Virus record (IMG/VR): IMGVR_UViG_3300028384_000913
Coordinates: 1 to 54,585 of that record
Source: a virus
DNA length: 54,585 nucleotides
Reading direction: 5' to 3' (one strand)
Positions 308 through 54,585 of the stretch are shown piece by piece. The notes under the pieces are model-generated. The model saw only the letters and a program-made list of their open reading frames with translations. It made no database searches and was not told the origin of the DNA. The first letter of the stretch is position 1; every line of letters begins with the position of its first letter. The translations under genes and the position numbers were made by a program.

Positions 308-852
308 AACACGACCCAGAACCATTACGATATTATGATTGGATGTTATGGAAAATGAGACAACTTGATAAGGAAGAAGCTTTGAAAAAACCTAAAATAT
401 ATGAATCGCCAGATGGGGGTAAAACTGTTTATAAACGTGACATTGGAGCCCCTATCAGTTCAAGAATAGAACTTGATCCTGCTAAAAGAAACTGGGAATA
501 CGACGGGGACGGAAGTAAGATCTATAAGCCAGAAGTAGGTTTTGGAACAAAGACCCTTGTTAGAGAAGGAGACCTTTCTCGCATAGATTATAGATTTAAC
601 GAACATAAATACATAGAAGAACTTCAAGAATATATAGATAAAACCTATAGTCAACATTACTCTGCAAATAAATTTCAATCTACTGAAGTAATCATTGATA
701 GAGGTCATGGTACAGGTTTCTGTATGGGTAACGTAGACAAATATTCAAATCGCTATGGTAAAAAAGGCGAAAGAGACGATCATAGAAAAGATCTTATGAA
801 GATTTTACACTATGCACTTTTACAGTTGTACGTTCATGATAACGAATCTTGA
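304..852 (+). CDS. DUF3310-like phage protein
   Basis: The C-terminal third (about residues 120-180) has the pattern of DUF3310 phage proteins: a G-N-V-x-K-Y segment, R-Y-G-K-K-G, then D-x-x-K-D-L-x-K-x-x-H-Y-A-L. In many phages this small domain is annotated as a nucleotide-kinase-like or SaV-like protein, but its biochemical role is not settled. The N-terminal 110 residues are charged and I do not recognise them. The start is TTG overlapping the preceding TGA, with an AGAGGA ribosome site 5 bases upstream; the first in-frame ATG (342) would drop the conserved-looking start and has no better site. Moderate confidence in the domain, low in any function. Confidence 0.65.
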   Translation: MKHDPEPLRYYDWMLWKMRQLDKEEALKKPKIYESPDGGKTVYKRDIGAPISSRIELDPAKRNWEYDGDGSKIYKPEVGFGTKTLVREGDLSRIDYRFNEHKYIEELQEYIDKTYSQHYSANKFQSTEVIIDRGHGTGFCMGNVDKYSNRYGKKGERDDHRKDLMKILHYALLQLYVHDNES

Positions 853-1336
853 AGAACATTTCACAAACGATTATGTCAGCCACGATGAAGATCCTCACGT
901 GGCTGATCTTGTAAGAAAATCAATTTCTACTCTAGATGTAGGTTGTGGAGATAACTTATTTAGTAAGTTTCAAACTAATGGTTGTTTTATAGGAGTAGAC
1001 CCTTTTAATAAAAATGCTGATTGGATTGGGGATATTCTTGATTATGAAAGTCCGTTTAACTATGATCTAATAATATGTTTTGGATCAATAAACTTTTACA
1101 ACATGAAATGGGTTGATGATCGTATGCATAAAGTATTTTCTCTATGGAGTAGAAAAAATAGAATTTGCATGAAAGTAAACCCTAACCAAGCATTTGCTAG
1201 TGGTATAAGGTTAGAATGGTTTGACAAGTGGACTCACGGACTTGCTTATCATTATGCAGAGATGTATGATTGTTATGTAACAGAATTTAGAGAGGCGGAA
1301 GATGGCAGATTTAAATGGGACTACATGGCCAGATAA
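836..1336 (+). CDS. SAM-dependent methyltransferase, class I
   Basis: A Rossmann-type methyltransferase: motif I is S-T-L-D-V-G-C-G-D-N, followed by the motif II region G-V-D-P-F-N and the post-II strand Y-D-L-I-I-C-F-G-S-I-N-F, the usual order in class I enzymes. At about 166 residues it is a minimal catalytic domain with no recognisable target-recognition domain, so the substrate (nucleic acid, protein or small molecule) is unknown. I place the start at ATG 836; the longer in-frame ATG at 812 would overlap the previous gene by 41 bases. The end overlaps the next gene by 35 bases. The partner genes downstream (P-loop protein, transporter) suggest an accessory metabolic block, but that is inference. 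Confidence 0.75.
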   Translation: MITNLEEHFTNDYVSHDEDPHVADLVRKSISTLDVGCGDNLFSKFQTNGCFIGVDPFNKNADWIGDILDYESPFNYDLIICFGSINFYNMKWVDDRMHKVFSLWSRKNRICMKVNPNQAFASGIRLEWFDKWTHGLAYHYAEMYDCYVTEFREAEDGRFKWDYMAR

Positions 1337-1673
1337 AATATTCTTTTGCGGAGTGCCAGGGTCTAGATGGAGTGGTATAGCACAAGAAATAAAGGCTAAA
1401 GAAGGAATGAACATTTCTGATAGAGCTTCTCATAGAGTTTACAAGCACGGAAAGTTCGGAGGTCATATAGACGCATATTTTGGTACAGGTATGGAATTCA
1501 GCTGTAAACTGTCCGAAGAAAATTTAAGGTATGAGAGTGACTACTGGATGCGTGCTAAGATTGAAGAACAAAATAATCTTATACTAGACTTTGCTCAAAG
1601 AAATAATCTTAGCTGGAAACAACACCATAAACACAGAAATGTATTTATAACAACATGCTTGAATTACTCTTAG
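1302..1673 (+). CDS. Short P-loop-like protein, possibly sulfotransferase-related
   Basis: The N-terminus (about residues 13-24, F-F-C-G-V-P-G-S-R-W-S-G) looks like the first strand and phosphate-binding loop of a P-loop fold, in the G-x-P-G-S-x-x-S form seen in sulfotransferase-like proteins. A second segment (Y-F-G-T-G-M-E-F) is distinctive but unassigned. At 123 residues it is about half the length of a typical sulfotransferase, and it ends inside the start of the transporter permease gene. It may therefore be a truncated relic or a reduced family of its own. Function not established; no catalytic residue can be named with confidence. Confidence 0.45.
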   Translation: MADLNGTTWPDKIFFCGVPGSRWSGIAQEIKAKEGMNISDRASHRVYKHGKFGGHIDAYFGTGMEFSCKLSEENLRYESDYWMRAKIEEQNNLILDFAQRNNLSWKQHHKHRNVFITTCLNYS

Positions 1674-2980
1674 GAACCTTATACGGTTTATTGGTTGGAA
1701 TTATACCTTCAGCAGGGGCTACGACAGGCCTTGTGGCTCTTTTTGGTTTTATGCATCTATTCCCTGATGAATACTCAGCTATAATTTTTATCATGGCTAC
1801 AGTAGCCGCTTCAACAACAGCAGACACTTTTGCCTCTGTACTTTTAGGTATACCAGGAGCAAACAGTGCTGCAGCAACTATACAAGACGGTCACCCCCTA
1901 GCTAGAAAAGGTAAGTCTGAATTAGCACTATCTGCAGCGATTACGTCCTCTACATTCAACGGATTATTATGGGGTTTTATTGTATTTGTATTTTTAGAAA
2001 ATCTAGAATTTGTATATACATATATTGGTAGTATTCAGCTATGGTTTATTACGCTGTTTGCTTTCTTTTGTGTTGTTCTTGTATTAGGAAAAAAATGGTA
2101 TCTAGGAGTAATAGGAATTGCTCTTGGTATTTTATTTGCTTTAGTAGGCTCTGATCCCATAACAAATGCTCCAAGATTAACTTTTGGTTGGGGATATTTA
2201 GAAAGTGGTATACAACTTATGCCTTTGATTGCAGGGGTTTTTGCAGTACCCCAAATTATAGATGGATTAGCGGGATGGTCAGCACCGGTAAAGCATGACA
2301 GAAAATCATATAAGTTGCTCGGAATATACGCTGTTTTTAAAAATTTAGGATTAAGTCTACGTGGAGGAATAATCGGCGCAACTATAGGATTCCTACCTGG
2401 ATTAGGCGGGGCAGTGTCTGACTGGATATCTTATGGCCATACGGTAGCGACTACAAAAAATCCTAAAATACCTTTTGGTAGAGGAAATATAAGAGGTGTT
2501 ATCGGTCCTGAAGGATCTAATAATGCTCAAAAAGCTACAAGTATGATAACTACAGTATTGTTTGGAATACCAGGCGCTCCCTTTGCTGCAGTCATCATGG
2601 GTTTGTTGATGTATCTAAACATCGAATTAGGTGATCCCTCTCTTTTTTACGATGAAATGATATTCGACTCTATGTTACTTGGTTTTATAGGCGGAACAGT
2701 CATAGTAGCTGTGATAATGTTTGCTTTACTAAAACCAATATGTTATATTACCAGAATTCCAGTAAAAATATTTTTTCCATTTTTATTTATTTTACTGCTT
2801 TGGAGCTGCGCTCAATACACAGGAGGATGGGAAGATTACTTGGTATTTTTTATCTTCTCTGTATTAGGATATATAATACACAAGCTTAACATATCAAAAC
2901 CAGCTTTATTGTTGTCTTTTATTCTTTTCGAGAGATTTGAACTACTCTCAATTCAATTATTAACAAGGTATATATTATGA
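1655..2980 (+). CDS. tctA: TctA-like tripartite tricarboxylate transporter permease
   Basis: A 441-residue, strongly hydrophobic protein with about 10-12 predicted membrane segments. It shows the two signature repeats of the TctA family: G-I-I-P-S-A-G-A near residue 18, and G-F-L-P-G-L-G-G-A-V-S near residue 250. It also has the family segments L-L-G-I-P-G-A near residue 66, D-G-H-P-L-A-R-K-G-K near 80, and N-N-A-Q-K-A...L-F-G-I-P-G-A near 290-310. In the family TctA is the large inner-membrane subunit that imports carboxylates using an ion gradient, working with a small TctB and periplasmic TctC. It is shorter at the N-terminus than cellular TctA (about 500). No ribosome site is visible; it overlaps the preceding gene, so coupled translation is likely. 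Its stop overlaps the start of the TctC-like gene (ATGA). Confidence 0.88.
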   Translation: MLELLLGTLYGLLVGIIPSAGATTGLVALFGFMHLFPDEYSAIIFIMATVAASTTADTFASVLLGIPGANSAAATIQDGHPLARKGKSELALSAAITSSTFNGLLWGFIVFVFLENLEFVYTYIGSIQLWFITLFAFFCVVLVLGKKWYLGVIGIALGILFALVGSDPITNAPRLTFGWGYLESGIQLMPLIAGVFAVPQIIDGLAGWSAPVKHDRKSYKLLGIYAVFKNLGLSLRGGIIGATIGFLPGLGGAVSDWISYGHTVATTKNPKIPFGRGNIRGVIGPEGSNNAQKATSMITTVLFGIPGAPFAAVIMGLLMYLNIELGDPSLFYDEMIFDSMLLGFIGGTVIVAVIMFALLKPICYITRIPVKIFFPFLFILLLWSCAQYTGGWEDYLVFFIFSVLGYIIHKLNISKPALLLSFILFERFELLSIQLLTRYIL

Positions 2981-3993
2981 AAAAACTACTTTTAACGTTA
3001 GCTACTTGTACTGCTCTTACAACCCCTGCTTTTGCAGAATATAAAATGATCATTCCACAAAAGCCAGGAGGAGGCACTTCGCAATGGGCTACAATTATTG
3101 CAAAATACCTAGAACCACATCTAGGAGAAAAAATTAAATTAGTGCATATTCCAGGTGCTAGAGACATTCCTGGATTTAATAAATTCCATAATGAATTACG
3201 TTTTGATGATAAAACTATTATGGTGTCGCACGGCGGTAACGGTGTATCGTATCTTACTGAGAACGTAGACTATAATTACAAAGACTATCAGCCAATTGGC
3301 GGTATGAATCTTACTATTCATATTGGAGAAAAAGAATTAGGAGATCACATTTACTTTGCAGGAGGTTCAGGCAATATCCCAGATGTTATGGCATTAACTC
3401 TCTATATGTGTGGAAATCTTGGAAGCTTTGAAGAATACGAAAAATGCTACAAAGACAATATCACTTTTGTAAAAGGAATGTCTGGAAGTGAAAGAAGGTT
3501 AGCATTCAATAATGGTGAGCTGAATATTACGAGAGAGAACCCTGCCGCCTACAAAAAACATGCTAAAGCAGCTAATCTGTTATTCACACATGGAGTTTTT
3601 GACTTAGATGAAGGCAAAGTTGTTGATGATAGAAATAAACCTAATATGTCATTTGATAAAGTCTTCACTGCAAAATGGGGGGAAGCACCTCAAGGTGATT
3701 TTTACGATGCATACATGCTTGTTAAAAACTACAGAGACATGCTACAAAAAGCATTATGGATGAATAAAGATAATCCTAACTCGGTACCTGTGACTTTGGC
3801 ACTCCTTGATATGCTAGAAGATAATGAAGCTATGGCAGCTATCGAGAAAAAAGTAGGAGACTATGACTGGTTTATTGCAGACGAACTAATTGAAGCTGTG
3901 AACTATCTTGAGAACAATAAAAATGAAGAGACCCAAGATTATCTCATTAAATGGCAAAGACAAGTCTTAGGGTATAATGCAGTCAAAAAATAG
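2977..3993 (+). CDS. tctC: TctC-like periplasmic solute-binding protein
   Basis: The first 20 residues form a Sec signal peptide: K-K at the N-terminus, a hydrophobic core and an A-F-A cleavage site before E-Y-K. Mature residues then give M-I-I-P-Q-K-P-G-G-G-T-S, the P-G-G-G-T motif of the Bug/TctC family, and later I-P-G-A-R. In that family the protein captures a carboxylate in the periplasm and hands it to TctA/TctB. At 338 residues it is near family length (about 320). The middle and C-terminal parts diverge from what I remember of cellular TctC, with an unusually acidic, alpha-helical tail, so the ligand cannot be predicted. Translationally coupled to the permease through ATGA; its end overlaps the next gene. 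Confidence 0.82.
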   Translation: MKKLLLTLATCTALTTPAFAEYKMIIPQKPGGGTSQWATIIAKYLEPHLGEKIKLVHIPGARDIPGFNKFHNELRFDDKTIMVSHGGNGVSYLTENVDYNYKDYQPIGGMNLTIHIGEKELGDHIYFAGGSGNIPDVMALTLYMCGNLGSFEEYEKCYKDNITFVKGMSGSERRLAFNNGELNITRENPAAYKKHAKAANLLFTHGVFDLDEGKVVDDRNKPNMSFDKVFTAKWGEAPQGDFYDAYMLVKNYRDMLQKALWMNKDNPNSVPVTLALLDMLEDNEAMAAIEKKVGDYDWFIADELIEAVNYLENNKNEETQDYLIKWQRQVLGYNAVKK

Positions 3994-4621
3994 TAAATTC
4001 TATTTTGATAAACTAATTAAGAAATACTCGAAACAAATTACCTTCATATACTATAGACCAGAATATGGAGGTAATTTATTAAATAGAATCATATTATCAG
4101 ACGAAGCATATTTCTGGGGAGAACAGCATAACTCTGCTGAGTCTACTCTAAAGCCTCTTGAATACCCTAAATCAACTGAAGGGTTTAATGTTCAAAATAA
4201 TCATTTTTTATCCTTCAAAGAACAACACCTGTCATGTGTTCATTCAAGTGACATTCCTTATCCTATACCTCTAAGAGAGCATGATTACGAAATACTTTTA
4301 AGGTACAAAAAAGCTCTACAAAATAATTTGAAAATATGTATCAAGTCTCAAAGAATAGATCAAGAAAACAACACTTGCAAAGGAATTAGATTGTATGGTC
4401 AACCATTATACAGATTTAATAGCGGTGACGCTGTTGAAAAAAGTTTTCATAAAAATGTTCTTAACGTTGAAGCTAAAAAACTATTCTCCGAAGATTATGA
4501 AGAATTTTTAGAAGAATACTTAAAGGTGGTTAGGTTTTTAGACTTGGCTCCAAACGTAAACCAAGTAAGGGCTTTCATATTACTATGGATAGAGAAACAA
4601 AAAAGATTCAAGCTGTCATAA
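3977..4621 (+). CDS. Hypothetical protein, paralogue of next gene
   Basis: Unrecognised protein of 214 residues. Its N-terminus (I-T-F-I-Y-Y-R-P-E-Y-G-G-N-L-L-N-R-I-I) has the position and spacing of the beta-strand plus nucleotide-binding loop of sulfotransferases (P-R-S-G-T-x-L-L), but key residues differ. The C-terminal third (L-F-S-E-D-Y-E-E-F...Y-L-K-V-V-R-F-L-D-L-A-P-N-V-N-Q-V-R-A-F-I-L-L) closely matches the same region of the following protein, so the pair arose by tandem duplication. No membrane segment or signal. It starts inside the end of the binding-protein gene. A PAPS-dependent sulfotransferase role is only a possibility. Confidence 0.5.
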   Translation: MQSKNSKFYFDKLIKKYSKQITFIYYRPEYGGNLLNRIILSDEAYFWGEQHNSAESTLKPLEYPKSTEGFNVQNNHFLSFKEQHLSCVHSSDIPYPIPLREHDYEILLRYKKALQNNLKICIKSQRIDQENNTCKGIRLYGQPLYRFNSGDAVEKSFHKNVLNVEAKKLFSEDYEEFLEEYLKVVRFLDLAPNVNQVRAFILLWIEKQKRFKLS

Positions 4622-5253
4622 ATAAGTTTCCTAACAGTTATTGCTTATTAGAAGCGCCAAAAGGCATGTTTGGTAGCCTGGTATATAGAATTATTGCCGC
4701 TTCTTCAGATAAGATAATTTGGAACTCATCCTTTTGCGGAAGCATCGAAGACCTAGCTCCTCTAGAGTGGCCGAGATATCAAGAAGGCTTTCTAATTTAT
4801 AATATAGGTAAAGCTACTTACAAATTCTTTAAAGAAAGTCATTTAGCTGCAGCACACATAAGCCTTCCTTTATTAGAGAATATGTCTTACCAAGAACTAA
4901 AAAATAGCTCTAATTTCAAAAAATCTCTGCTTATAAAAAGCCATATGACTGATCTTCATGAAAATTACGACTGCAAGGTTTACAGACTAACTGGGTCTTT
5001 GAAAAATATTGTACCGTATGATAAAAATACTCAACTAAGATCAGAACAACATTTAAACTTTATGCCTGCTAAAACAAATAAAGTGTATAATATAGATGTT
5101 GAAAAGCTGATGAGCGAAGACTACGATGTTTTTGAAAAAGAGTATTTAAGTTTATGTGATACTTTAGATACGCTTCCTAATATTAATAACGTCAGACAAT
5201 TCATACTTTTGATGAGGGATAAACTAAAAAGATATCATTTAAGTCTTTCTTAA
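4585..5253 (+). CDS. Hypothetical protein, paralogue of preceding gene
   Basis: 222 residues, diverged duplicate of the upstream protein. Shared blocks include P-L-E-W-P-R-Y-Q-E-G-F (P-L-E-Y-P-K-S-T-E-G-F upstream), F-K-E-S-H-L-A-A-A-H (F-K-E-Q-H-L-S-C-V-H), L-M-S-E-D-Y-D-V-F-E-K-E-Y-L and N-I-N-N-V-R-Q-F-I-L-L. The putative loop near the N-terminus reads A-P-K-G-M-F-G-S-L-V-Y-R-I-I, again at the place where a sulfotransferase loop would sit. It overlaps the upstream gene by 37 bases and is the last gene before the ligase. Enzymatic role unknown; the shared H-L and S-E-D-Y residues are the best candidates for functional sites. Confidence 0.5.
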   Translation: MDRETKKIQAVINKFPNSYCLLEAPKGMFGSLVYRIIAASSDKIIWNSSFCGSIEDLAPLEWPRYQEGFLIYNIGKATYKFFKESHLAAAHISLPLLENMSYQELKNSSNFKKSLLIKSHMTDLHENYDCKVYRLTGSLKNIVPYDKNTQLRSEQHLNFMPAKTNKVYNIDVEKLMSEDYDVFEKEYLSLCDTLDTLPNINNVRQFILLMRDKLKRYHLSLS

Positions 5254-7088: not shown

Positions 7089-7163
7089 CTATATATAAAG
7101 TCAAGAGGGAAACAAAACTCTTGAGAATATTCAAAACCACAAACGATCAGAGGGGATCATACT

Positions 7164-7847
7164 ATGTCAAAATTTGAATACACTGAAGATATGGTTGCAC
7201 GTATGCACGATGTTGCTGGCGCAGGCGTAACTGAAGAATCAATCGAAGGTCTTATGGAAGAATTCGATTTCCCACGTCGGTCAGTAACCGCAAAACTGCG
7301 TAAGCTGGGCTACGACGTACCTAAAAAGCCAGGTGCAGCTCCTGTTTTCTCAGCAGAAGAAACAGACAAGCTGGCTGACTTCCTGAATACTAACTCAGGC
7401 AACATGACTGCTGAAGAAATTGCAGCAGAATTCATGGGTGGTAAGTTTACTGCTCGTCAAATCAACGGTAAAGCTCTTTCACTGGAAATGACATCACATG
7501 TCAAGCCAGCTGAGAAGAAGATCACTCCACGTACCTACACTGAGGAAGAAGAGTCAAAGATCGCATCTATGGTCGATGGCGGTTCATACCTCGAAGAGAT
7601 TGCTGACTCAATGGGTCGTTCTGTAAACTCAATTCGTGGCAAACTGTTGTCAATGGGTCTTAAGGCTCCACAGCGTGATAAGAAAGATACTAAAGCAGAC
7701 CCATATGCAGGTATCGAAGATATGCTGGATCAAACTGTCGAAGAGATCGCTGAATCATTCGACAAGACAGTACGAGGTGTAAAGACTGTTCTTACACGTC
7801 GCGGTCTTAGCTGTGCAGATTACACACCAAAAGCTGCTGGTGAGTAA
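7164..7847 (+). CDS. Tandem HTH (Myb/SANT-like) DNA-binding protein
   Basis: 227 residues built from about four repeated helix-turn-helix units (roughly 1-50, 58-107, 125-170 and 178-217). Each opens with an acidic helix and ends with a recognition-type helix: R-R-S-V-T-A-K-L-R-K-L-G, T-A-R-Q-I-N-G-K-A-L-S-L, S-V-N-S-I-R-G-K-L-L-S-M-G, T-V-R-G-V-K-T-V-L-T-R-R-G. This suggests a sequence-dependent or coating DNA-binding protein, perhaps a regulator or nucleoid-like factor. Codon use is visibly richer in G and C than the neighbours (many CGT, CTG, GGT, TTC codons), as expected of a very highly expressed gene. It stands as a single-gene unit between a strong promoter and a strong terminator. The target DNA is unknown. 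Confidence 0.7.
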   Translation: MSKFEYTEDMVARMHDVAGAGVTEESIEGLMEEFDFPRRSVTAKLRKLGYDVPKKPGAAPVFSAEETDKLADFLNTNSGNMTAEEIAAEFMGGKFTARQINGKALSLEMTSHVKPAEKKITPRTYTEEEESKIASMVDGGSYLEEIADSMGRSVNSIRGKLLSMGLKAPQRDKKDTKADPYAGIEDMLDQTVEEIAESFDKTVRGVKTVLTRRGLSCADYTPKAAGE

Positions 7848-7871
7848 TTGAAATCCTTGGGGGGATATAGG

Positions 7872-7900
7872 GGGTGGTAGGTAACTACCACCCTTTTTTT
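7872..7900 (+). terminator. Intrinsic terminator with GTAA tetraloop
   Basis: Perfect 9-bp stem GGGTGGTAG / CTACCACCC closed by the stable tetraloop GTAA, followed at once by seven T. It ends the single-gene unit of the multi-HTH protein. The T-run finishes only 3 bases before the ATG of the amidinotransferase gene, so that gene can be reached only by read-through or has an unseen signal. Confidence 0.95.
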
Positions 7901-7903
7901 ATT

Positions 7904-8923
7904 ATGTTCAAAGCATTTACAGAATTTCAAAAATTAAAAAAAGTTATGGTAGGCAGAGGTTTCTCAACCTCGATTGTAGAAAGTGGTTATCTTAGAGATA
8001 AACTAACTCCCTCAACTAAAAGTTTGCTAACAAATCTTTTAGAAGAGACTGAAGAAGATTATCAAAACTTAATTAACATATGCGAAGAATTCGGGGCACA
8101 AGTTGTGCGTCCAGAATACTCTTCAAATAATATGGATATTGTACCCTATCTAATGTCTCCTAGAGATAATCTAATAGCGTTACATGATTCGTTATTAGTG
8201 TGTAATGAGGCGATGCAAACTAGTATAGACCTGTGTGGCCCTTTTGTTAGTCAAACAGCTAATATTAAAAGAGGGAAACATACTTTCGGTTTGATGCCTC
8301 CTTCTATAGTAAGATTAGGTAAAGACATAATTTTAGATAAACAATCAGAACAAATATCAAATGCTGATTTAAGTGCAAAGTGGGTAAAAGATTGGTTAGA
8401 ACCTTTAGGGTATAATGTAATATATACTAAAACGCATGATTTCAAATTTAAAGGAAATATAAGTCACGGTGATGGGTGTTTCTCAATCCAAAAACCAGGT
8501 GTTATCTTAACGTGTAGAGAGGCTAAGCACTATACTGAGAATATATTTAAGAATTGGGATGTCTTTCAAGTTCCAAGTGCATGGGAAAAAATGAGTAAAT
8601 GGAACAAATTTAAAGAAGATACACGGTCTTATGCCTTTACTGATGTTAAATATATTGATCCCGTATGGAATAAATTAATAACAGACTGGTTATCTGATTG
8701 GGTTGGATATTCTCAAGAAACTATTTTTGACGTAAATGTATTATCTCTAGATGAAAATCATGTAGTAGTATCACATTACGATAAAGAAGTTTTTGCATAT
8801 TTTAAAAAGCACAAAATAGAACCTATAATAAGTCCTTGGAGACATAGATTTTTTTGGGATGGAGGAATACATTGTATAACACTAGACTTAGAAAGAGAAG
8901 GTGAATGTGAGCAATATCTATAA
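7904..8923 (+). CDS. Glycine-amidinotransferase-like enzyme, copy 1
   Basis: 339 residues, full-length for the amidinotransferase (AGAT) family, which moves an amidino group from arginine to an amine. Motifs seen: P-R-D-N (Asp88), R-L-G-K-D-I (136-141), S-H-G-D-G (His188, Asp190) and G-G-I-H-C-I-T (Cys324, candidate nucleophile), then R-E-G-x-C-E-Q-Y-L at the end. As I recall human AGAT, the Asp that pairs with the catalytic His sits just before the R-x-G-x-D-I block; here that place is Ser (P-P-S-I-V-R), so chemistry may differ. I chose ATG 7904 by alignment to copy 2; the GTG at 7874 would lie inside the terminator. No good ribosome site is visible. Substrate unknown. Confidence 0.82.
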   Translation: MFKAFTEFQKLKKVMVGRGFSTSIVESGYLRDKLTPSTKSLLTNLLEETEEDYQNLINICEEFGAQVVRPEYSSNNMDIVPYLMSPRDNLIALHDSLLVCNEAMQTSIDLCGPFVSQTANIKRGKHTFGLMPPSIVRLGKDIILDKQSEQISNADLSAKWVKDWLEPLGYNVIYTKTHDFKFKGNISHGDGCFSIQKPGVILTCREAKHYTENIFKNWDVFQVPSAWEKMSKWNKFKEDTRSYAFTDVKYIDPVWNKLITDWLSDWVGYSQETIFDVNVLSLDENHVVVSHYDKEVFAYFKKHKIEPIISPWRHRFFWDGGIHCITLDLEREGECEQYL

Positions 8924-9992
8924 TTCATATGCTGAGTTTTTACCTCTTAAAACAGTGATGGTTGGTAGGTGTCATTCTTCTGAAAGTTTAGATCATACTT
9001 CTCTAGAGATGTCAGAAAAAACTAAAAACTTATTCAAGCAACTTTTACAAGAAACAGAGGAAGACTTTCAGCAGTTTATTTCTATCTGCAAGCAATTTGG
9101 AGCAGAAGTCAAAAGACCTAAGTATTCATCTAAATCTTTTAAAACCTCTGACTCTAGAGAAGCCCTAGGCTTAGGGGGTATGCGAGAAAGTCTTTTTCAA
9201 GAATACCCCTATCTACTGATTCCAAGAAATAATTTAATAACCTTAGATGACACGGTAGTATCAATAAATTCTGATGATGTTATACATAATGATTATATTA
9301 GTTCTATCACAAACATTAAAAATATAAGAAATGAATACACCACACATGACAATCTAAAGCCTTCTTCAATTATTAGGTTGGGTAAAGATATAATTGTAGA
9401 CAAACAAGAATTTATGAACAGTAACACTGAAAAAGGGTTTAATTATTTAAAAGAATGGTTAGAGCCTATTGGTTATAATATAATATACACAGCGTATCAT
9501 AACTTTAAATTTGCTGATCATCAAAGTCATGGCGATAGTACTTTGGCAATATGTAAACCAGGAGCATTGATAAGCCATGTTGATGCTAAAAATTATACGA
9601 CAGAGATTTTTAAATCCTGGGACGGTCTGACAATATCAGAAGACTCAAGTAAAAATAAGCTTAATAAATGGTACAGTCTAAAAACAAAATTAGCTAATTT
9701 CAACTTCTTTAGTAAAAAATATAATGATGAAGCTTTTCACCATACTATAGAAAACTGGTTCAAGGAATGGGTAGGATACGCTAATGAAACAGTATTTGAT
9801 ATTAATATTTTCTCTCTTGATGAGAGTACCGTTGTCGTATCTAACTATAACAAAGAAGTATTTGATTTCTTCAAAAAACACAAAATAGAGCCAATTATAT
9901 GTAACTTTAGACATAGGTATTTCTGGGATGCAGGATGGCATTGCTTAACTTCAGATTTAGAAAGAGAAGGAAATTGTGAACAATATCTCTAA
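8907..9992 (+). CDS. Glycine-amidinotransferase-like protein, copy 2
   Basis: Tandem paralogue of the upstream gene (361 residues from GTG 8907). It keeps V-M-V-G-R, R-L-G-K-D-I, S-H-G-D, the terminal G-W-H-C-L-T (candidate nucleophile Cys) and the C-terminal R-E-G-N-C-E-Q-Y-L, but P-R-D has become P-R-N and an insert of about 20 residues sits between residues 75 and 100. It may have a new specificity, or serve as a non-catalytic partner of copy 1. The start is GTG 8907, 6 bases after the ribosome site AGAGAAG, which is itself encoded by the conserved end of copy 1; GTG 8901 is an alternative. Overlaps the next gene in the same way. Confidence 0.78.
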   Translation: MSNIYNSYAEFLPLKTVMVGRCHSSESLDHTSLEMSEKTKNLFKQLLQETEEDFQQFISICKQFGAEVKRPKYSSKSFKTSDSREALGLGGMRESLFQEYPYLLIPRNNLITLDDTVVSINSDDVIHNDYISSITNIKNIRNEYTTHDNLKPSSIIRLGKDIIVDKQEFMNSNTEKGFNYLKEWLEPIGYNIIYTAYHNFKFADHQSHGDSTLAICKPGALISHVDAKNYTTEIFKSWDGLTISEDSSKNKLNKWYSLKTKLANFNFFSKKYNDEAFHHTIENWFKEWVGYANETVFDINIFSLDESTVVVSNYNKEVFDFFKKHKIEPIICNFRHRYFWDAGWHCLTSDLEREGNCEQYL

Positions 9993-10428
9993 AGATATCG
10001 AAGAATGGATTGATAGAATTACTACCCCTATCAGCGGTTATCAAATATGCCCCTACGCTAAAAAAGCTAAGTACCTAATATTCGAGCACGAAGATATGCT
10101 AAGTATGCAAATGAAAGCTGCTTTTTACAATTATTCAGAAGATTTAATAATTTGTATACCTACAGATAAATATATGACTGTAGATAGGGCTAAGTATATT
10201 GAATATAACATCAACAAGACTGCATTAAACACTATAGTACTATTAGACCATCCTGAAGATCCTGGATATATAAACGGAGTGTATACAGGTAATGGTAAAC
10301 ATATAGTATTCCTTATCCAACCAAAGAAAGAACTCTTAGAAGCCCGAAAACATCTAAAAACTACTAGTTACTATGATAAATGGACTGAAGAGTATAAGAA
10401 CAAAATATGGCAAAACAATTACTATTAG
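9976..10428 (+). CDS. Hypothetical protein, possibly DUF1415-like
   Basis: 150 residues. The N-terminus pairs a W-I-D helix with C-P-Y-A-K-K (residues 25-30), which recalls the C-P-F-A segment of DUF1415 proteins; the similarity is weak. The rest (L-I-I-C-I-P-T, V-Y-T-G-N-G-K-H-I-V-F-L-I-Q-P) looks like an alpha/beta protein. It starts with GTG 9976, with AGAGAAGG supplied by the conserved end of the second amidinotransferase gene, so it is the third member of a translationally coupled series and probably acts with those enzymes. Function unknown. Confidence 0.5.
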   Translation: MNNISKDIEEWIDRITTPISGYQICPYAKKAKYLIFEHEDMLSMQMKAAFYNYSEDLIICIPTDKYMTVDRAKYIEYNINKTALNTIVLLDHPEDPGYINGVYTGNGKHIVFLIQPKKELLEARKHLKTTSYYDKWTEEYKNKIWQNNYY

Positions 10429-16465: not shown

Positions 16466-16953
16466 ATAAGTTTGAATTCATAAAATATCCTTTTTTCGGA
16501 ATTAAACAAAAACCTTATCAGATTAAATATGACTTAACAAAAATGTATATCAAAAGAATGTATACAGGACATTTTGAAACAGTTGATGATAAATCTTTAG
16601 CAGGTGACTATTTTGCAAGATTAGCTACTCTTGAGACTAGGTTAAAATTTGATTATACTTGTAAGAACCTTCAAGAACTAATTTACAGTGGTTGTAGATG
16701 GGGAATGGATTGTGAAGCTAATCCACATGATTTATCAAAACCCATGACTGCCAGATCGTTCTGTAATAAGGTTGTAAAAGTAAATGATAATCTAGTTTGG
16801 ATAAAGAATGTGTCGTACCCTTTTACTATTCCAACAAGTGAGAAGCTAGAATTGAATGAAGAGATATTTGGGACTGTAGTGAAAGTCGGAGATGAGTGGT
16901 ATCTCAAAGAATTTTCTTTTGAGCCTAATAACAATACTTATATGAGGATATAA
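16462..16953 (+). CDS. Hypothetical protein, 163 aa
   Basis: I do not recognise this protein. It starts basic (F-E-F-I-K-Y-P-F-F-G-I-K-Q-K-P-Y), has a helical middle with A-R-L-A-T-L-E-T-R-L, three Cys (K-N-L...G-C-R-W-G-M-D-C-E and F-C-N-K) and a beta-strand C-terminus (V-V-K-V-G-D-E-W-Y-L-K). No signal or membrane segment. It is coupled on both sides by start-stop overlaps, between the basic peptide and the SpeD-like gene, so it is probably expressed with the replication genes. Confidence 0.55.
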   Translation: MNKFEFIKYPFFGIKQKPYQIKYDLTKMYIKRMYTGHFETVDDKSLAGDYFARLATLETRLKFDYTCKNLQELIYSGCRWGMDCEANPHDLSKPMTARSFCNKVVKVNDNLVWIKNVSYPFTIPTSEKLELNEEIFGTVVKVGDEWYLKEFSFEPNNNTYMRI

Positions 16954-17327
16954 TGCTAGTACATAAGCATCTGCTTCTTCAAGCTAGGTTTTTAGCAAGA
17001 GGCAGAGTTGAAAGATATTATGAGACTTGGATGAAGGTACTTGTAGAGAAAATTGGTATGGAATTGCTAACAGAACCAAAAGCAGTTAGATCTAATATGC
17101 CAGGAAACAGAGGTATTACCTGTTCTGCTATGATTACTACTAGTCACATAGTCTTACACACATGGGAAGATACACATCCAGGGCTATTACAGTTAGATGT
17201 TTATTCTTGTAAAGACTTTGAAATAAGTGATGTTATAGAAAAATTAAAAGATTTTTGGGTAGATGAACATACTATTCAGTTTAAATTTTTAGACAGAGAA
17301 AATGGGTTTACTGAGCTAAATGGGTAA
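16953..17327 (+). CDS. speD: S-adenosylmethionine decarboxylase-like protein
   Basis: 124 residues, the length of a small bacterial-type AdoMet decarboxylase before self-cleavage. The core T-T-S-H-I-V-L-H-T-W-E-D matches the family block S-H-(I/L)-x-x-H-T-(W/Y)-P-E, in which the Ser becomes the pyruvoyl cofactor; the later L-Q-L-D-V-Y-S-C-K-D-F holds the conserved Cys. The residue before Ser-His is Thr, where cellular enzymes usually have Glu, so self-processing may be altered. In cells the product, decarboxylated AdoMet, feeds spermidine synthesis; polyamines could help package phage DNA. No spermidine synthase is seen in this window. Confidence 0.78.
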   Translation: MLVHKHLLLQARFLARGRVERYYETWMKVLVEKIGMELLTEPKAVRSNMPGNRGITCSAMITTSHIVLHTWEDTHPGLLQLDVYSCKDFEISDVIEKLKDFWVDEHTIQFKFLDRENGFTELNG

Positions 17328-19755: not shown

Positions 19756-20567
19756 AAAAGTCTCTAGCAGATATGGCTTCTGCTGAAAAGCCGAAGAAGA
19801 AAACCTTTGGCGCTTTCAAAGAAGTAGATGGGGGTCAAGCACAGATTGACCTTAACATGCTTAGAGAACATAATGTTTTCTTTGCTACTCCTTGTTATGG
19901 TGGACAAGTTACTGATCAATTCTTTTTGTCTATGTTCAGAATGTCTCAGACATTCATGCAACACGGCATCAACTTCAGAATTACTACATTACGTAACGAA
20001 TCTTTAGTAACAAGAGCTAGAAACATTCTTACAGCAATGTTCCTAGAGTCTGATTGTACACACTTGATGTTCATTGATGCTGATATCGAGTTTGACTCAG
20101 AAGCTATTCTTAGAGCTTTAGCGTATGATAAACCAATCATGGCTGCGGCATATCCTAAGAAAGCTTTACCTGTACAGTACGCTATTAACTTCAAGTTTAT
20201 AGATCAAGCTACAAAACAGGTGAGAGTTGAAAACGGTGCTGTAGAAGTTCTAGACGCCTCTACAGGGTTTTTCTTAATTAAACGTGAAGTTATTGAGAAA
20301 ATGACAGCAGCACATCCTGAGCTACACTATCGTAATGATTCAAATATAGATCCAAAGTTTAACAAGTATTGTTATGCTTTGTTTGATACTATTTTAGATC
20401 CCGATGATAATCGCTATCTATCAGAAGACTATACTTTCTGTCGTAGATGGCAAAAGCTCGGAGGAGAGATTTGGTTAGACCCTAACACAAAACTCAATCA
20501 TGTTGGTGCATACACCTTTGAAGGTGATGTATCTAAGATTATTGGCCGTGAAAATCCAGAGTCTTAA
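19752..20567 (+). CDS. Glycosyltransferase, GT-A fold
   Basis: 271 residues. An N-terminal tail (1-32, K-S-L-A-D-M-A-S-A-E-K-P-K-K-K) precedes a GT-A fold: N-V-F-F-A-T-P-C-Y-G-G, then the R-N-E-S-L-V-T-R-A-R-N block, the metal-binding F-I-D-A-D-I-E-F (D-x-D type, about residues 112-116), an acceptor region S-T-G-F-F-L-I-K-R, and L-S-E-D-Y-T-F-C-R-R (E-D, likely general base). It should transfer a sugar from a nucleotide-sugar; the acceptor might be phage DNA, a virion protein or host polysaccharide. Coupled to the SSB gene by ATGA. Confidence 0.8.
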   Translation: MKKSLADMASAEKPKKKTFGAFKEVDGGQAQIDLNMLREHNVFFATPCYGGQVTDQFFLSMFRMSQTFMQHGINFRITTLRNESLVTRARNILTAMFLESDCTHLMFIDADIEFDSEAILRALAYDKPIMAAAYPKKALPVQYAINFKFIDQATKQVRVENGAVEVLDASTGFFLIKREVIEKMTAAHPELHYRNDSNIDPKFNKYCYALFDTILDPDDNRYLSEDYTFCRRWQKLGGEIWLDPNTKLNHVGAYTFEGDVSKIIGRENPES

Positions 20568-21468
20568 ATACGACAACCCTTCTTTTCAAGTTGAGGTTGA
20601 GTGGGATATAACACAAAGATGTAACTATTCTTGTTCATACTGTGCAAGTTATGATAACACTCAACCTTTTAACTTCAAAGAATTAGACGAGTACTTAGAT
20701 AGCTTTGAGTACTTGTCTAACTTCTTTGGTAACAAAACTATAAAGATTAATTTTTTAGGAGGCGAGCCTACACTCTTCAAGCAGTGGGTCAAATTAGTAA
20801 ACTGGTTATCTGAGCATAATTTTGTGATAAAACTAACAACAAATTTATCAGTACCAGTTATACAGTATATCAAAGTATTAAATGTAGGATTAGGGAACTT
20901 CATCAGTGCTAGTTATCACACTGAGTTTGCAGACTTAGATAAGTTTTATGAAAATGCAAATTACTTGCATCATGCAGGATTCTTGCATAGCATAACACTT
21001 CTACCTGACCCTAAGAACTGGGACTACTCGATGAAGTGTTATGAAAAACTTAGTAAGATAACGACAGTTAGTCTTAATAAGATAAAGAATGAATTTACAG
21101 ATTCTGTAGGCATCTCTGGAGATTTCATTGAATACTCGGACGAACAACTTAAAATGTTCAATCAAGTTCCAAGACGAGTTGATGAGAATATGAGTATTAT
21201 AGTTGATGGAGAAACTAAGCACCCGTCACTATATGAAATAAGAGAGAAATATAGTAATTTTAAAGGTATGAAGTGTGCAATAGGCAGAGATAGAATACAC
21301 ATCAAACCTAATGGTGACATCTATCCTAGTGCTTGTTTACTAAACTATCCTAGAGCTAAGATGGGAAATATCTTTAAGAAGAATATAATTAAACCTAAGA
21401 ATGCAGTGATCTGCCCATTCAATGAGTGTTTATGTGGACCTGATATTCGTATAGAAAAGTGGGCGTAG
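20548..21468 (+). CDS. Radical SAM enzyme 1
   Basis: Radical SAM core with C-N-Y-S-C-S-Y-C (Cys25, Cys29, Cys32 from the start chosen) for the [4Fe-4S]-SAM cluster, then the G-G-E-P block (N-F-L-G-G-E-P-T) that binds SAM. The C-terminal part has more Cys (K-C-A-I-G-R, S-A-C-L-L, I-C-P-F-N-E-C-L-C-G), arranged like a SPASM or twitch auxiliary cluster domain, typical of enzymes that modify peptides. Start uncertain: GTG 20548 overlaps the glycosyltransferase end by 20 bases; ATG 20527 with GAAGG nearby is the alternative. No substrate peptide is seen next to it, except the small Cys-containing frame at 21471. Confidence 0.85.
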   Translation: MKIQSLKYDNPSFQVEVEWDITQRCNYSCSYCASYDNTQPFNFKELDEYLDSFEYLSNFFGNKTIKINFLGGEPTLFKQWVKLVNWLSEHNFVIKLTTNLSVPVIQYIKVLNVGLGNFISASYHTEFADLDKFYENANYLHHAGFLHSITLLPDPKNWDYSMKCYEKLSKITTVSLNKIKNEFTDSVGISGDFIEYSDEQLKMFNQVPRRVDENMSIIVDGETKHPSLYEIREKYSNFKGMKCAIGRDRIHIKPNGDIYPSACLLNYPRAKMGNIFKKNIIKPKNAVICPFNECLCGPDIRIEKWA

Positions 21469-51554: not shown

Positions 51555-51930
51555 TGTGTCTATAGATGGTGTATAGTTTATCTAACCAATAGTTTGATAA
51601 AGTTACTATACACGACGATCCCCCTTCTTCAACGTGTAGCATTTTTGTAGGTTGTAAAAACATACCGAAATGTGTTATTAAATCTGACTTCTCTGACTTA
51701 AATACCATTACATCATAATTTATTGCAGATGTCAATTCTACTTTTATAGCACACGAAGATGCCCAATCATCAACGTTAGTTGTAGAAAATTGTTTCATCC
51801 ATGCTCTAGATTTAGGATAAGGGGGTATAGTAAAATCAATATTAAGCTCTTCAGAATAAAACTTTCTGATTAATTCAATACAATCAACCTCACCATAATT
51901 ATGTTTGAGACCTAAATATTTATGTACCAC
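51541..51930 (-). CDS. NlpC/P60-like peptidase, copy 1
   Basis: 129 residues. L-K-H-N-Y-G-E-V-D-C-I-E-L-I (Cys17) is the catalytic-Cys helix typical of phage NlpC/P60 proteins; L-I-T-H-F-G-M-F-L has the His. The third active-site position is not clear. It may be an active endopeptidase, a structural tail-tip relative, or half of a heterodimer with the next gene. Starts within the end of radical SAM enzyme 3 (19-base overlap), so translation is tied to it. Confidence 0.75.
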   Translation of the reverse strand: MVHKYLGLKHNYGEVDCIELIRKFYSEELNIDFTIPPYPKSRAWMKQFSTTNVDDWASSCAIKVELTSAINYDVMVFKSEKSDLITHFGMFLQPTKMLHVEEGGSSCIVTLSNYWLDKLYTIYRHNDMV

Positions 51931-53108
51931 GATGCATACTCGGGGAAAACTGATTCAAAAGATTCATTTCTAGTTAAATCGTACTTAGTATTAAAAGATT
52001 TAAACTCAGGTAACAGATTAGAGTCATCTTTTGAATTCATATATGTAATCCAACTCTTAATCATATTTATCTCGTCGTTAGTAAACTTATTGTAGTGCTC
52101 AAGTAAAAATTCTTTGTATTGATGATTAATCTTTCTTTTTGCCTCTTTAGGTAGGCAAGTAATTGACATATGATTAGGCATTATTAAAGTAGTTCCGTGA
52201 AGTTGTACACCTCGTTCTTTTGACCAAAGTAATAAATCAGGCATAGAAGAGATACTATAAATACTAATTACTGAACTTATTGTTTGAATATACTCTTTAA
52301 AATGGTTAACATTATTTTGAAAAGTATTCCATGAAAGTCCTTTTCTAGAATATTCAGCTTTGTCACCAAAACCTTCACAACTTGGCCACACTTTGACATG
52401 TTTAAAATTTTGCCATAGTTGTTTAATGTCGTGTTTTTTAAACTTAGTATAACTCAGATTAGAGTTATAGCTTAGGCTAATGCGAGAAGATATACCTTTC
52501 TCAATCAAATAGTTTAACAATTTATAATGACCGTCTTGAACAAAAGGCTCTCCACCAGCAAAGTATATATCTCGTAAATGAGTCGATATATAATCAATAT
52601 TGTTCCAAAAAACTTCATTATCAGTATACTTATCTATAGCACCTTTCAAAGAAGTTGGCATTTCTCTATACCAACTAGTCGAAGATTCAGGGCCACACAT
52701 TCTACATCGGAAATTACAAGTATTTCCGAAACGTACATCTAAATATACAGGGAATGAATTTAGAGAACCATCTTCTTCAGTCATAGATTGAAGAACTGCA
52801 AGATCCTTGTAGTTTTCATTCATGATTTGACGATGACTTTTACTTCCGAGCTTTTCTTTATTGAAACACGCCCATTCACACTCTGGAACACTTTTTCCTT
52901 CTAAAAAAGATTTTCTGATTTTTCTATAGGCTTCACCATTCCATACATCTGAAAAAGTGTCTTTATGTGTACCGAGCACACTTACTTCAGGCGCATATTC
53001 AGCAAAACAGCAGACCTTATACTCTCCTGAAATTGTACCGAATAAGTGCATCCAAGGAAGTATGCAACCTTTTATATTATTGTTTTGGAATTGTTCTACC
53101 TGTTGCAG
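51912..53108 (-). CDS. Radical SAM enzyme 3 with N-terminal twitch-like domain
   Basis: 398 residues from the CTG at 53108. The SAM-cluster motif is C-N-F-R-C-R-M-C (Cys131, Cys135, Cys138), followed by Y-F-A-G-G-E-P-F, the SAM-binding G-G-E-P. Extra Cys come before it (G-C-I-L-P-W, V-C-C-F, E-C-E-W-A-C, residues 15-81), an auxiliary cluster domain on the N-terminal side, as in the twitch-type radical SAM proteins reported from marine phages. The start is unusual: a CTG 5 bases after GGAGG in the gpL gene is the best placed; a frame from 53183 lacks support. It lies between gpL and NlpC in the tail operon, which suggests a tail-protein substrate. Confidence 0.83.
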   Translation of the reverse strand: MQQVEQFQNNNIKGCILPWMHLFGTISGEYKVCCFAEYAPEVSVLGTHKDTFSDVWNGEAYRKIRKSFLEGKSVPECEWACFNKEKLGSKSHRQIMNENYKDLAVLQSMTEEDGSLNSFPVYLDVRFGNTCNFRCRMCGPESSTSWYREMPTSLKGAIDKYTDNEVFWNNIDYISTHLRDIYFAGGEPFVQDGHYKLLNYLIEKGISSRISLSYNSNLSYTKFKKHDIKQLWQNFKHVKVWPSCEGFGDKAEYSRKGLSWNTFQNNVNHFKEYIQTISSVISIYSISSMPDLLLWSKERGVQLHGTTLIMPNHMSITCLPKEAKRKINHQYKEFLLEHYNKFTNDEINMIKSWITYMNSKDDSNLLPEFKSFNTKYDLTRNESFESVFPEYASWYINI

Positions 53109-54585
53109 GAAAGCCTCCAAAATGAATTGAGTTATTTCTAATCTGACAAGCTTGTAAAGACTTACTACAGATATCACCTGCATTTGTAGCTGCTACTTGA
53201 TTATTGGCGGCAATAGGATTTGCATTGGAAGTAAGCGTAGTTCCAGGAATTGCAAGACCGCCAGGGCCAGGGTACTGACACTCAGGACCTTTATATCTCC
53301 ACTGACAGGTGTTTTTATAAAACTTTCTTGAAGGAACTTGGTTTCTAAAATACTGTAGCCAAGAAATTAGCCCGAATTGTGCTACCTCATTATTTAAAGA
53401 CTCTAGGTGGTCAATTTTGAACGTATCTTCAACATAAGATTCTGGGTCTGCTTGTTGGTTTACAATAAATATAGGATCACCAACAGCTGTATTAGCGTCT
53501 AGAGCATTTGATAAGAATAAAAATCTATTCTCCTCAATAGATTCGATTGTGCCTTCAGTTGATCCAGTAGATTTAACATTGTCACCAACACGATAAGGCA
53601 TTGCATTATATACCTCAACTACATTAGCAGTAACAAAACGTGCAGAGCTATATTCAGGCCATACATCAAGAAAATTAGCAAAAGTTGTTTTTATATTGAC
53701 AACTCCGCCTAATAAATCTCTAGTGTCGGCTTTTTCTTCAACCCATTCTCCGCCTACGCTTAAAGTTTCAGATCTAGAAAAAGATGCGTTTGCTTTACCA
53801 TATGCACTCACCATATCTGAATCATACGACAAACCATTTGCTCTGGCTCTTGTTAGTACATCAAAACCTTCATCCCCTGCTGAACCAAAGTCACTAGGAG
53901 TTGCATCAATGGTTCTTGGATCGATTCCATGCACTAATTCACCGTTTACAATTGCTTGGCAAGCGTTAGAAGAATTATTACCAACTAAGAAAGGATCTTC
54001 AATTAATCTTGATACGATATTATCTAAATTAAACATTGTAAGTGTGAGTTCATTGATTCTGCCATCAGAGCTTTGATCAATAGAAGAAATATTTAAAGGG
54101 AATGGGATATAAGAGTCGCCTTGGTGAGTAACATTGTAATTTAAATCAGAAATTAAATCCCCTCTTACATCAGCAAATCTAATAGGAAACTCGTTAGGCC
54201 AAGCTCTACCTTCGCCTAAATTAGTGGGATTACCTGCTTCATTAACAGGAAACCACTCGCCCGGGTAGTAAACTTCATACAATCTTACAACAGGGTTTTG
54301 AGTAAAAGCGTTCTTTTCAGCTATAAAACCACTTGGACCAATTGATTGAATAGTAGCAATAGCTGTAACAGTATTGCCTCCAAAAGCGTTTGCCTGAAAA
54401 GGGATGGCACTGGAATTATTTAGCGCACCATTAGCAGTATTGTTTGTAAAAATAGAGTTAGAATGAATTACCTCAAGATTAGAAAACTCAGATAGAGAGT
54501 TAGCTAATTTTACTTTAAGAACGTTAGAGGATAGATCAACATTAGCAATCACGCCTGTTGCCGCAGAGGTGTTGCCTACTATGAC
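53077..54585 (-). CDS. Lambda gpL-like tail tip protein (Fe-S), 5' partial
   Basis: Frame open at the window edge, so the gene starts beyond it; GTG 54552 is only the first in-frame start. The last part has the four-Cys pattern of lambda gpL, which carries a [4Fe-4S] cluster: C-Q-W-R-Y-K-G-P-E-C-Q-Y-P, then D-I-C-S-K-S-L-Q-A-C-Q-I-R and F-G-G-F-P-A. Before that, L-T-M-F-N-L-D-N-I and D-I-L-like segments are gpL-type beta strands, with a long inserted region (about 260-380 of the visible part). Lambda gpL is 232 residues; here over 500, so it is extended. Its end overlaps radical SAM enzyme 3. Confidence 0.85.
   Translation of the reverse strand, partial: VIVGNTSAATGVIANVDLSSNVLKVKLANSLSEFSNLEVIHSNSIFTNNTANGALNNSSAIPFQANAFGGNTVTAIATIQSIGPSGFIAEKNAFTQNPVVRLYEVYYPGEWFPVNEAGNPTNLGEGRAWPNEFPIRFADVRGDLISDLNYNVTHQGDSYIPFPLNISSIDQSSDGRINELTLTMFNLDNIVSRLIEDPFLVGNNSSNACQAIVNGELVHGIDPRTIDATPSDFGSAGDEGFDVLTRARANGLSYDSDMVSAYGKANASFSRSETLSVGGEWVEEKADTRDLLGGVVNIKTTFANFLDVWPEYSSARFVTANVVEVYNAMPYRVGDNVKSTGSTEGTIESIEENRFLFLSNALDANTAVGDPIFIVNQQADPESYVEDTFKIDHLESLNNEVAQFGLISWLQYFRNQVPSRKFYKNTCQWRYKGPECQYPGPGGLAIPGTTLTSNANPIAANNQVAATNAGDICSKSLQACQIRNNSIHFGGFPATGRTIPKQ

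Follow-up and report, generated by a model that had tools for sequence, protein, structure and literature searches.

A tandem pair of viral pentein genes related to amidinotransferases, with altered catalytic positions

The window, by which we mean the whole stretch of DNA analysed here, is a virus record of 54,585 bases. It encodes a DNA polymerase, a primase, a DnaB-type helicase and a ribonucleotide reductase and has T5-like regulator matches. Nothing close to its bases 1-24000 turned up in the phage records that were searched. Near its left end, two genes for related pentein proteins, copy 1 and copy 2, lie head to tail on the plus strand, followed by a smaller gene that we call the partner. 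These genes and the other features that are relevant below are as follows.

812..1336, + strand: methyltransferase-like gene (a weak assignment); in 14 of 84 loci, a relative stands no more than 8 kb from the pentein family
1302..1673, + strand: unassigned gene whose relatives show a G-A-P-G-S-type loop; in 12 of 84 loci, a relative stands no more than 8 kb from the pentein family
1655..2980, + strand: TctA-type transporter permease (Pfam TctA, 285.5 bits); in 11 of 84 loci, a relative stands no more than 8 kb from the pentein family
2977..3993, + strand: gene 3' of TctA; in 10 of 84 loci, a relative is close to the pentein family
7164-7847: D5-like regulator gene, 5' of the hairpin
7869..7896, + strand: terminator-like hairpin of 12 pairs, then a T run, directly 5' of the copy 1 start
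7904..8923, + strand: copy 1, predicted AGAT/StrB-fold pentein of 339 aa, complete ORF with ATG at 7904
8901..9992, + strand: copy 2, diverged tandem paralogue of 363 aa, complete ORF with GTG at 8901
9976..10428, + strand: downstream partner gene for a 150-aa protein with the motif CP[FY]A ... DH ... YY, phrog_10325 (function unrecorded)

The two pentein ORFs share 23 nt, and the last 17 nt of copy 2 also belong to the partner gene. Near the 3' end of each copy, right before the next GTG start, is an AGAAGG-like stretch, which suggests coupled translation. The hairpin ends only a few bases 5' of the copy 1 ATG, and an alternative in-frame GTG for copy 1, at 7874, falls within it. Similar elements occur 5' of the pentein gene in two other loci (L005 and L024), with a spacer of about 200 nt before the gene in L005. 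To look for a guanidine riboswitch or another RNA element 5' of copy 1, sequences from six sources were searched against Rfam at gathering thresholds, with no matches. As the hairpin is terminator-like and lies downstream of the preceding gene, a riboswitch reading was dropped.

Copies 1 and 2 are paralogues with 46-47% identity, and both match the profile of PHROG 25854 (E-values of 2.4e-22 and 5.5e-14, respectively), which has no recorded function. Single-sequence scans of both copies against Pfam and NCBIfam were empty or at chance level. The Pfam ADI profile (PF02274) matched neither copy; one of 44 family members reached an E-value of 0.0017, and none of 11 records exceeded the curated cut-off. 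When a profile of 16 family members was searched against the PDB, it matched HsvA, AGAT, SxtG and StrB (E-values of 1.7e-28 to 6.4e-23), and amidinotransferases were the sole penteins found. Copy 2 alone matched HsvA in a phmmer search of the PDB (E-value of 3.6e-9). The AlphaFold model of copy 1 (mean pLDDT 84.8, pTM 0.88), compared over residues 1-339, was closest to StrB (Z 27.0), HsvA (26.8), SxtG (26.7) and AGAT (26.6), with arginine deiminases at Z ~24 and DDAH and PAD at Z ~20. Foldseek ranked the amidinotransferases (E-values of ~1e-15) above deiminases and DDAH (1e-9 to 1e-6) as well. The model thus points to a pentein propeller fold of the AGAT/StrB kind for copy 1, and copy 2 would share this fold by its homology to the copy 1 family.

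We next compared the catalytic positions with those of human AGAT, whose triad consists of Asp254, His303 and Cys407 (PMC2844391, PMC3684758). The residues in question are located as follows.

Copy 1, + strand: PRD at 8159-8167 (D88), M131 at 8294-8296, S134 at 8303-8305, H188 at 8465-8467, E272 at 8717-8719, C324 at 8873-8875
Copy 2, + strand: PRN with N110 at 9228-9230, K153 at 9357-9359, S156 at 9366-9368, H210 at 9528-9530, E296 at 9786-9788, A344 at 9930-9932 (Gly in nearly all relatives), C348 at 9942-9944

A preliminary description of this DNA had proposed two paralogues with the Cys and His of AGAT-type enzymes, and the alignment bears this out. The nucleophilic Cys (AGAT Cys407) corresponds to C324 in copy 1 and C348 in copy 2, each directly preceded by a His, and the catalytic His (AGAT His303) to H188 and H210, with an Asp two residues further on in both copies (D190 and D212). 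The third member of the triad is missing: in the Asp254 column, copy 1 has M131 and copy 2 has K153. The same description had placed a Ser where AGAT has its Asp. The catalytic Asp is indeed absent, but the Ser shared by the two copies (S134 and S156) belongs to the AGAT Asp257 column, three residues past that of Asp254. As cellular references we used five amidinotransferase genes from plasmid records, four of which carry this annotation and one of which carries none. Their products are 20-25% identical to the pair; all five have Asp in the Asp254 column, and three have Gln in the Asp257 column. The loss of Asp254 is thus real, whereas the Ser, in a column that varies among cellular enzymes, tells little. 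We also looked for a shifted alignment that would restore the catalytic Asp and could rule this out, since the loop has no Asp or Glu close enough. The AGAT Asp170 column, finally, holds D88 in copy 1 and N110 in copy 2, so the P-R-N of copy 2 in place of P-R-D had been read correctly. As Asp254, a defining residue, is absent, we withhold membership in the amidinotransferase family proper, and consider that copy 1 works like such an enzyme as the best reading only. The two copies and their relatives are a large, mainly viral lineage related to amidinotransferases, with many members in marine phages such as the one studied here, and mostly without the triad Asp.

To determine how unusual the pair is, we turned to its relatives. 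In each large scan for related loci, the best 80 loci were kept. At least 377 relatives were confirmed among the 600 candidate stretches listed in one scan, and 458 among 599 in another. Positions were compared in sets of 92 and 134 distinct rows, derived from 109 and 203 ORFs by removing duplicates that were identical over the last 200 and 120 residues, respectively. In the 92 rows, the Asp254 column contained Ser (n = 25), Asp (n = 18), Asn (n = 16), Cys (n = 7) and others. Asp was found there in 31 of the 134 rows, and the other 103, which show no Asp, include many loci with a single copy. The loss of Asp254 is therefore no mark of the window pair and, being common in the family, is by itself no argument for an enzyme with a dead partner. 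The remaining positions are strongly conserved among rows with a letter there: Cys324 in 130/130, His188 and Asp190 each in 133/133, Asp88 in 128/132 and Glu272 in 122/123.

On a tree of 91 rows, from which one 123-aa fragment was excluded, the presence or absence of Asp at this position requires four changes. Two deep branches (L013 and L101) keep Asp254 along with Glu272 and Asp276. These data fit an ancestral Asp254 that later became dispensable in some lineages, although gain and loss are not separable on this tree because it is unrooted. Glu272 sets the family apart from cellular enzymes, none of the five having it; among three other phage homologues it is found in one, that of phage CPt10. 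Asp276 is nearly invariant in the family. It was ruled out as a replacement acid, as it is also present in three of the five cellular enzymes, which keep Asp254. A one-for-one exchange of Asp254 for either residue was not seen, since family members that keep Asp254 (such as L029, L066 and L012) have both Glu272 and Asp276. The loop bearing Glu272 is the least certain part of the copy 1 model (pLDDT below 50 for residues 267-272).

Adjacent pairs of pentein genes were found in eight loci, namely the window, L022, L023, L026, L046, L081, L091 and L180, and are scattered over several clades of the tree, which does not include L180. The members of the pairs in L081 and L022 are each other's nearest kin, and those in L091 come from distant clades. 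In L022 and L023, the first member is cut by the contig end. Both members keep the main catalytic residues in the complete pairs of L026, L046, L081 and L091, so a degraded second copy is no general rule. Several pentein copies each are also carried by larger IMG/VR records such as G013 and G014. Three sequences of the marine virus AG-345-D19, a single-cell virus (MH319720, MH319724 and MH319727; L106, L015 and L016), have one relative each.

Copy 2 is unusual even within the family. Of 33 positions that are conserved in at least 90% of the other rows, 32 are retained in copy 1, the exception being an Asp at position 293, and 31 are retained in copy 2. The only departures of copy 2 are Asn for Asp88 and Ala for Gly320, the latter four residues before the Cys. 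No other of the 134 rows has Ala at this Gly position. The Asp170 column contains Asn in three of 132 rows (copy 2, L012 and L168) and Gly in L058, and the Asn-bearing members of L012 and L168 keep their Cys. Locus L168 has two pentein ORFs, one at 3974-5032 with the Asn in the Asp170 column and one at 7096-8106 with Cys-Cys for the His-Cys of the family.

The end branch of copy 2 is longer than that of copy 1 (1.07 versus 0.38). A clade of copies 1 and 2 that excludes L001 was rejected (p-AU 0.012), which suggests that the duplication predates the split from L001, although a long branch is involved. Codon comparison of the two copies yielded dN 0.48 and dS 2.47; the resulting dN/dS of ~0.2 is consistent with constraint, on a dS that is near saturation. 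A search for copy 2 orthologues in IMG/VR scans found closest relatives of 45% identity among the matches listed. The preliminary description had suggested one enzyme and one modified or inactive partner. In agreement with this, both paralogues have an altered catalytic apparatus, that of copy 2 more so. The inactivity part holds less well: the loss of Asp254 is family-wide, and copy 2 retains the Cys, the His and the equivalents of D190 and E272. Considering this and the recurrence of the Asn in L012 and L168, inactivity of copy 2 is possible only, as judged from its sequence.

Genomic neighbourhoods were analysed for further clues. Because loci often lie on contigs that end early, all neighbour counts are lower bounds. 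In 26 of 84 loci, a member of the partner family stands no more than 8 kb from the pentein family, at a median distance of 4 bp. In a wider set of 114 loci, by contrast, it is found within 300 bp in only 15, and in 36 at any distance. Of 24 whole records, 13 contain it. Its members have invariant C-P, A, H, L and Y positions. The model of the partner protein (pLDDT 90.9) had no fold match, with a best Foldseek E-value of 0.11, and comparing its sequence with the PDB gave nothing usable. Weak matches to DUF6875 were obtained for 10 of 26 family members (best E-value of 1.5e-5). In the comparison with DUF6875 and DUF1415, they align with the first 40-70 positions of DUF6875, the site of their C-P motif. 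DUF6875 proteins have been described as heme-binding tryptophan oxidisers (PMC13307353). Heme binding by the partner is a lead only, since none of 15 partner records exceeds the curated DUF6875 cut-off and the window's own protein (9976-10428) has no match. Homologues of the partner were further found in 25 records of cyanophages. In three such regions that we viewed (L103, L104 and L105), the partner homologue is located a few hundred bases 5' of a gp25-type baseplate wedge gene, and of these only Synechococcus phage S-SCSM2R was found to have a pentein family member.

Other gene sets recur as well. In some phages, L012, L081 and L091 among them, the partner gene, an arginyltransferase-like GNAT gene and a DUF6614 gene adjoin the pentein gene; with a cut-off of 25 bits, the GNAT assignment scored 31.6 bits in L012 and fell below the cut-off in the two others scanned. 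At the left end of the window is a second recurring set, consisting of the TctA permease, the gene following it, the methyltransferase-like gene and one more gene (10-14 of 84 loci each). The permease carried by this phage (1655-2980) is a full-length TctA-family protein. The gene at 2977..3993 has no Pfam or NCBIfam match and is, from its position alone, possibly a TctA solute-binding protein. A creatine-type pathway of AGAT and guanidinoacetate methyltransferase (GAMT) was considered and rejected, as the methyltransferase-like neighbour in L071 matched no such enzyme in the PDB by sequence. Enrichment of viral GAMT has been reported (PMC11360552); we found no connection between it and this pentein family. 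Sulfotransferase and 2OG-oxygenase labels for two neighbour clusters were discarded because neither had Pfam support, nor the sulfotransferase PDB support.

Three further genes of the window may be mentioned here. An S-adenosylmethionine decarboxylase gene (polyamine pathway) is located at 16953-17327 (+), and in L002 and L004 the first bases of the pentein ORF overlap with a relative of it. A radical SAM protein at 20500-21468 (+) has the prokaryotic viperin model as its best NCBIfam match (E-value of 6.6e-14), far below the cut-off. A twitch-domain radical SAM protein at 51912-53183 (-) matches NF033640 above the cut-off (360.6 bits) and shares its strand with the tail-fibre gene.

Compared with AGAT, StrB, HsvA and SxtG, copy 1 has in common the fold, the Cys, the His, the Asp after the His and the Asp170 equivalent. 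The pair differs from these enzymes by Met or Lys for Asp254 and by Glu272 for a small residue, and copy 2 lacks the Asp170 equivalent. Phage-borne homologues are known from Campylobacter phages CP220 and CPt10, where a "possible glycine amidinotransferase" has been noted (PMC2853527). These are distant (22-27% identity), lie in clusters with radical SAM genes and, unlike the window pair, keep Asp254. Phage S-SCSM2R has two genes of the same superfamily, annotated as glycine and inosamine amidinotransferases, both in glycan-type clusters. The first (213353-214246) is without Asp254, as is the window pair, to which it is 33% identical, and has 2OG-oxygenase and Kds-type genes as neighbours. In contrast to the pair, the second (234570-235529) has Asp254; it is found among glycosyltransferases. 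Our literature search on phage and viral amidinotransferases, in which subscription journals were thinly covered, found no paper on this pentein family; amidinotransferase does appear as an entry in the KEGG table of a viral survey (PMC8226683).

These settings in the Campylobacter phages and S-SCSM2R make a sugar or a small molecule a more likely acceptor than a DNA base. For base guanidination, one of the options in the preliminary description, we found no support: no base-modification gene set was recognised in the scanned parts of the window. No glycan cluster was recognised either in the parts scanned for gene families, which take in only some of its right half. A small molecule, a sugar or a protein could still be the target of guanidination.

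Asp170-type residues bind guanidinium in the pentein superfamily, so ordinary guanidinium binding is unlikely for copy 2, which lacks the first Asp. We propose that copy 1 is an active guanidino-group enzyme. Its Cys324 would form an amidino-thioester from a guanidino donor, arginine or a relative of it, with His188 as acid/base and with Asp88 and Asp190 gripping the guanidinium. A small molecule or glycan bearing an amine would then accept the amidino group. The canonical Asp254 would be dispensable in this lineage, which may have an acid of its own in Glu272, just before the last repeat. Copy 2, from an older tandem duplication, would be a diverged subunit or an enzyme of altered specificity. 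Taken together, we regard this account of an active copy 1 and a diverged copy 2 as having about equal chances of being right or wrong.

Alternatively, both copies may be active amidinotransferases that act on different acceptors or donors, in sequence or in parallel, with the Asn and Ala of copy 2 tuning its specificity. The catalytic residues retained by copy 2, the Cys-bearing relatives with the same Asn and the four complete pairs with two intact members are consistent with this, and the distant origins of the L091 members look like two tasks. However, the Asn at a guanidinium-binding position is rare and the Ala is found nowhere else in the 134 rows, and we consider activity of both copies rather unlikely. 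It is improbable that the family consists of hydrolases of the deiminase or dihydrolase type, which would remove ammonia or guanidine with no amidino transfer. Such enzymes belong to the same fold superfamily, share the chemistry up to the thioester and, as arginine deiminases, also match the copy 1 model, but both structure comparisons placed amidinotransferases above deiminases and the profile search retrieved no other penteins. That copy 2 is a decaying duplicate without function, as its long branch, its two altered positions near the active site and the missing close relative among the IMG/VR matches listed might suggest, is very improbable given a frame open over 363 codons, the low dN/dS (dS nearly saturated), 31 of 33 conserved positions, an intact overlap with the next gene and an apparent origin before the split from L001.

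Extending our proposal of an active copy 1 with a diverged copy 2, the family could be a separate guanidino-enzyme lineage of marine phages that dropped the His-Asp254 relay and uses Glu272 in catalysis or for binding a new substrate. It would act together with the CP[FY]A partner, which may be a heme protein, in a small biosynthetic cassette carried by the phage, and elsewhere also with the arginyltransferase-like GNAT and the DUF6614 protein, to make an oxidised or acylated guanidino compound. The window enzyme would be a hetero-oligomer in which the active site of the second subunit is remodelled. As a whole, this extended scheme is speculative, and we think it improbable in all its parts together.

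The family is present in hundreds of viral contigs, yet its profile has no function. If its enzymes work, the acid of the textbook amidinotransferase triad can be lost while the family thrives, and guanidino chemistry would be widespread in phages, where it has received little study. The tandem pairs, as they recur, lend themselves to testing whether a paralogue that has diverged can serve as a partner subunit.
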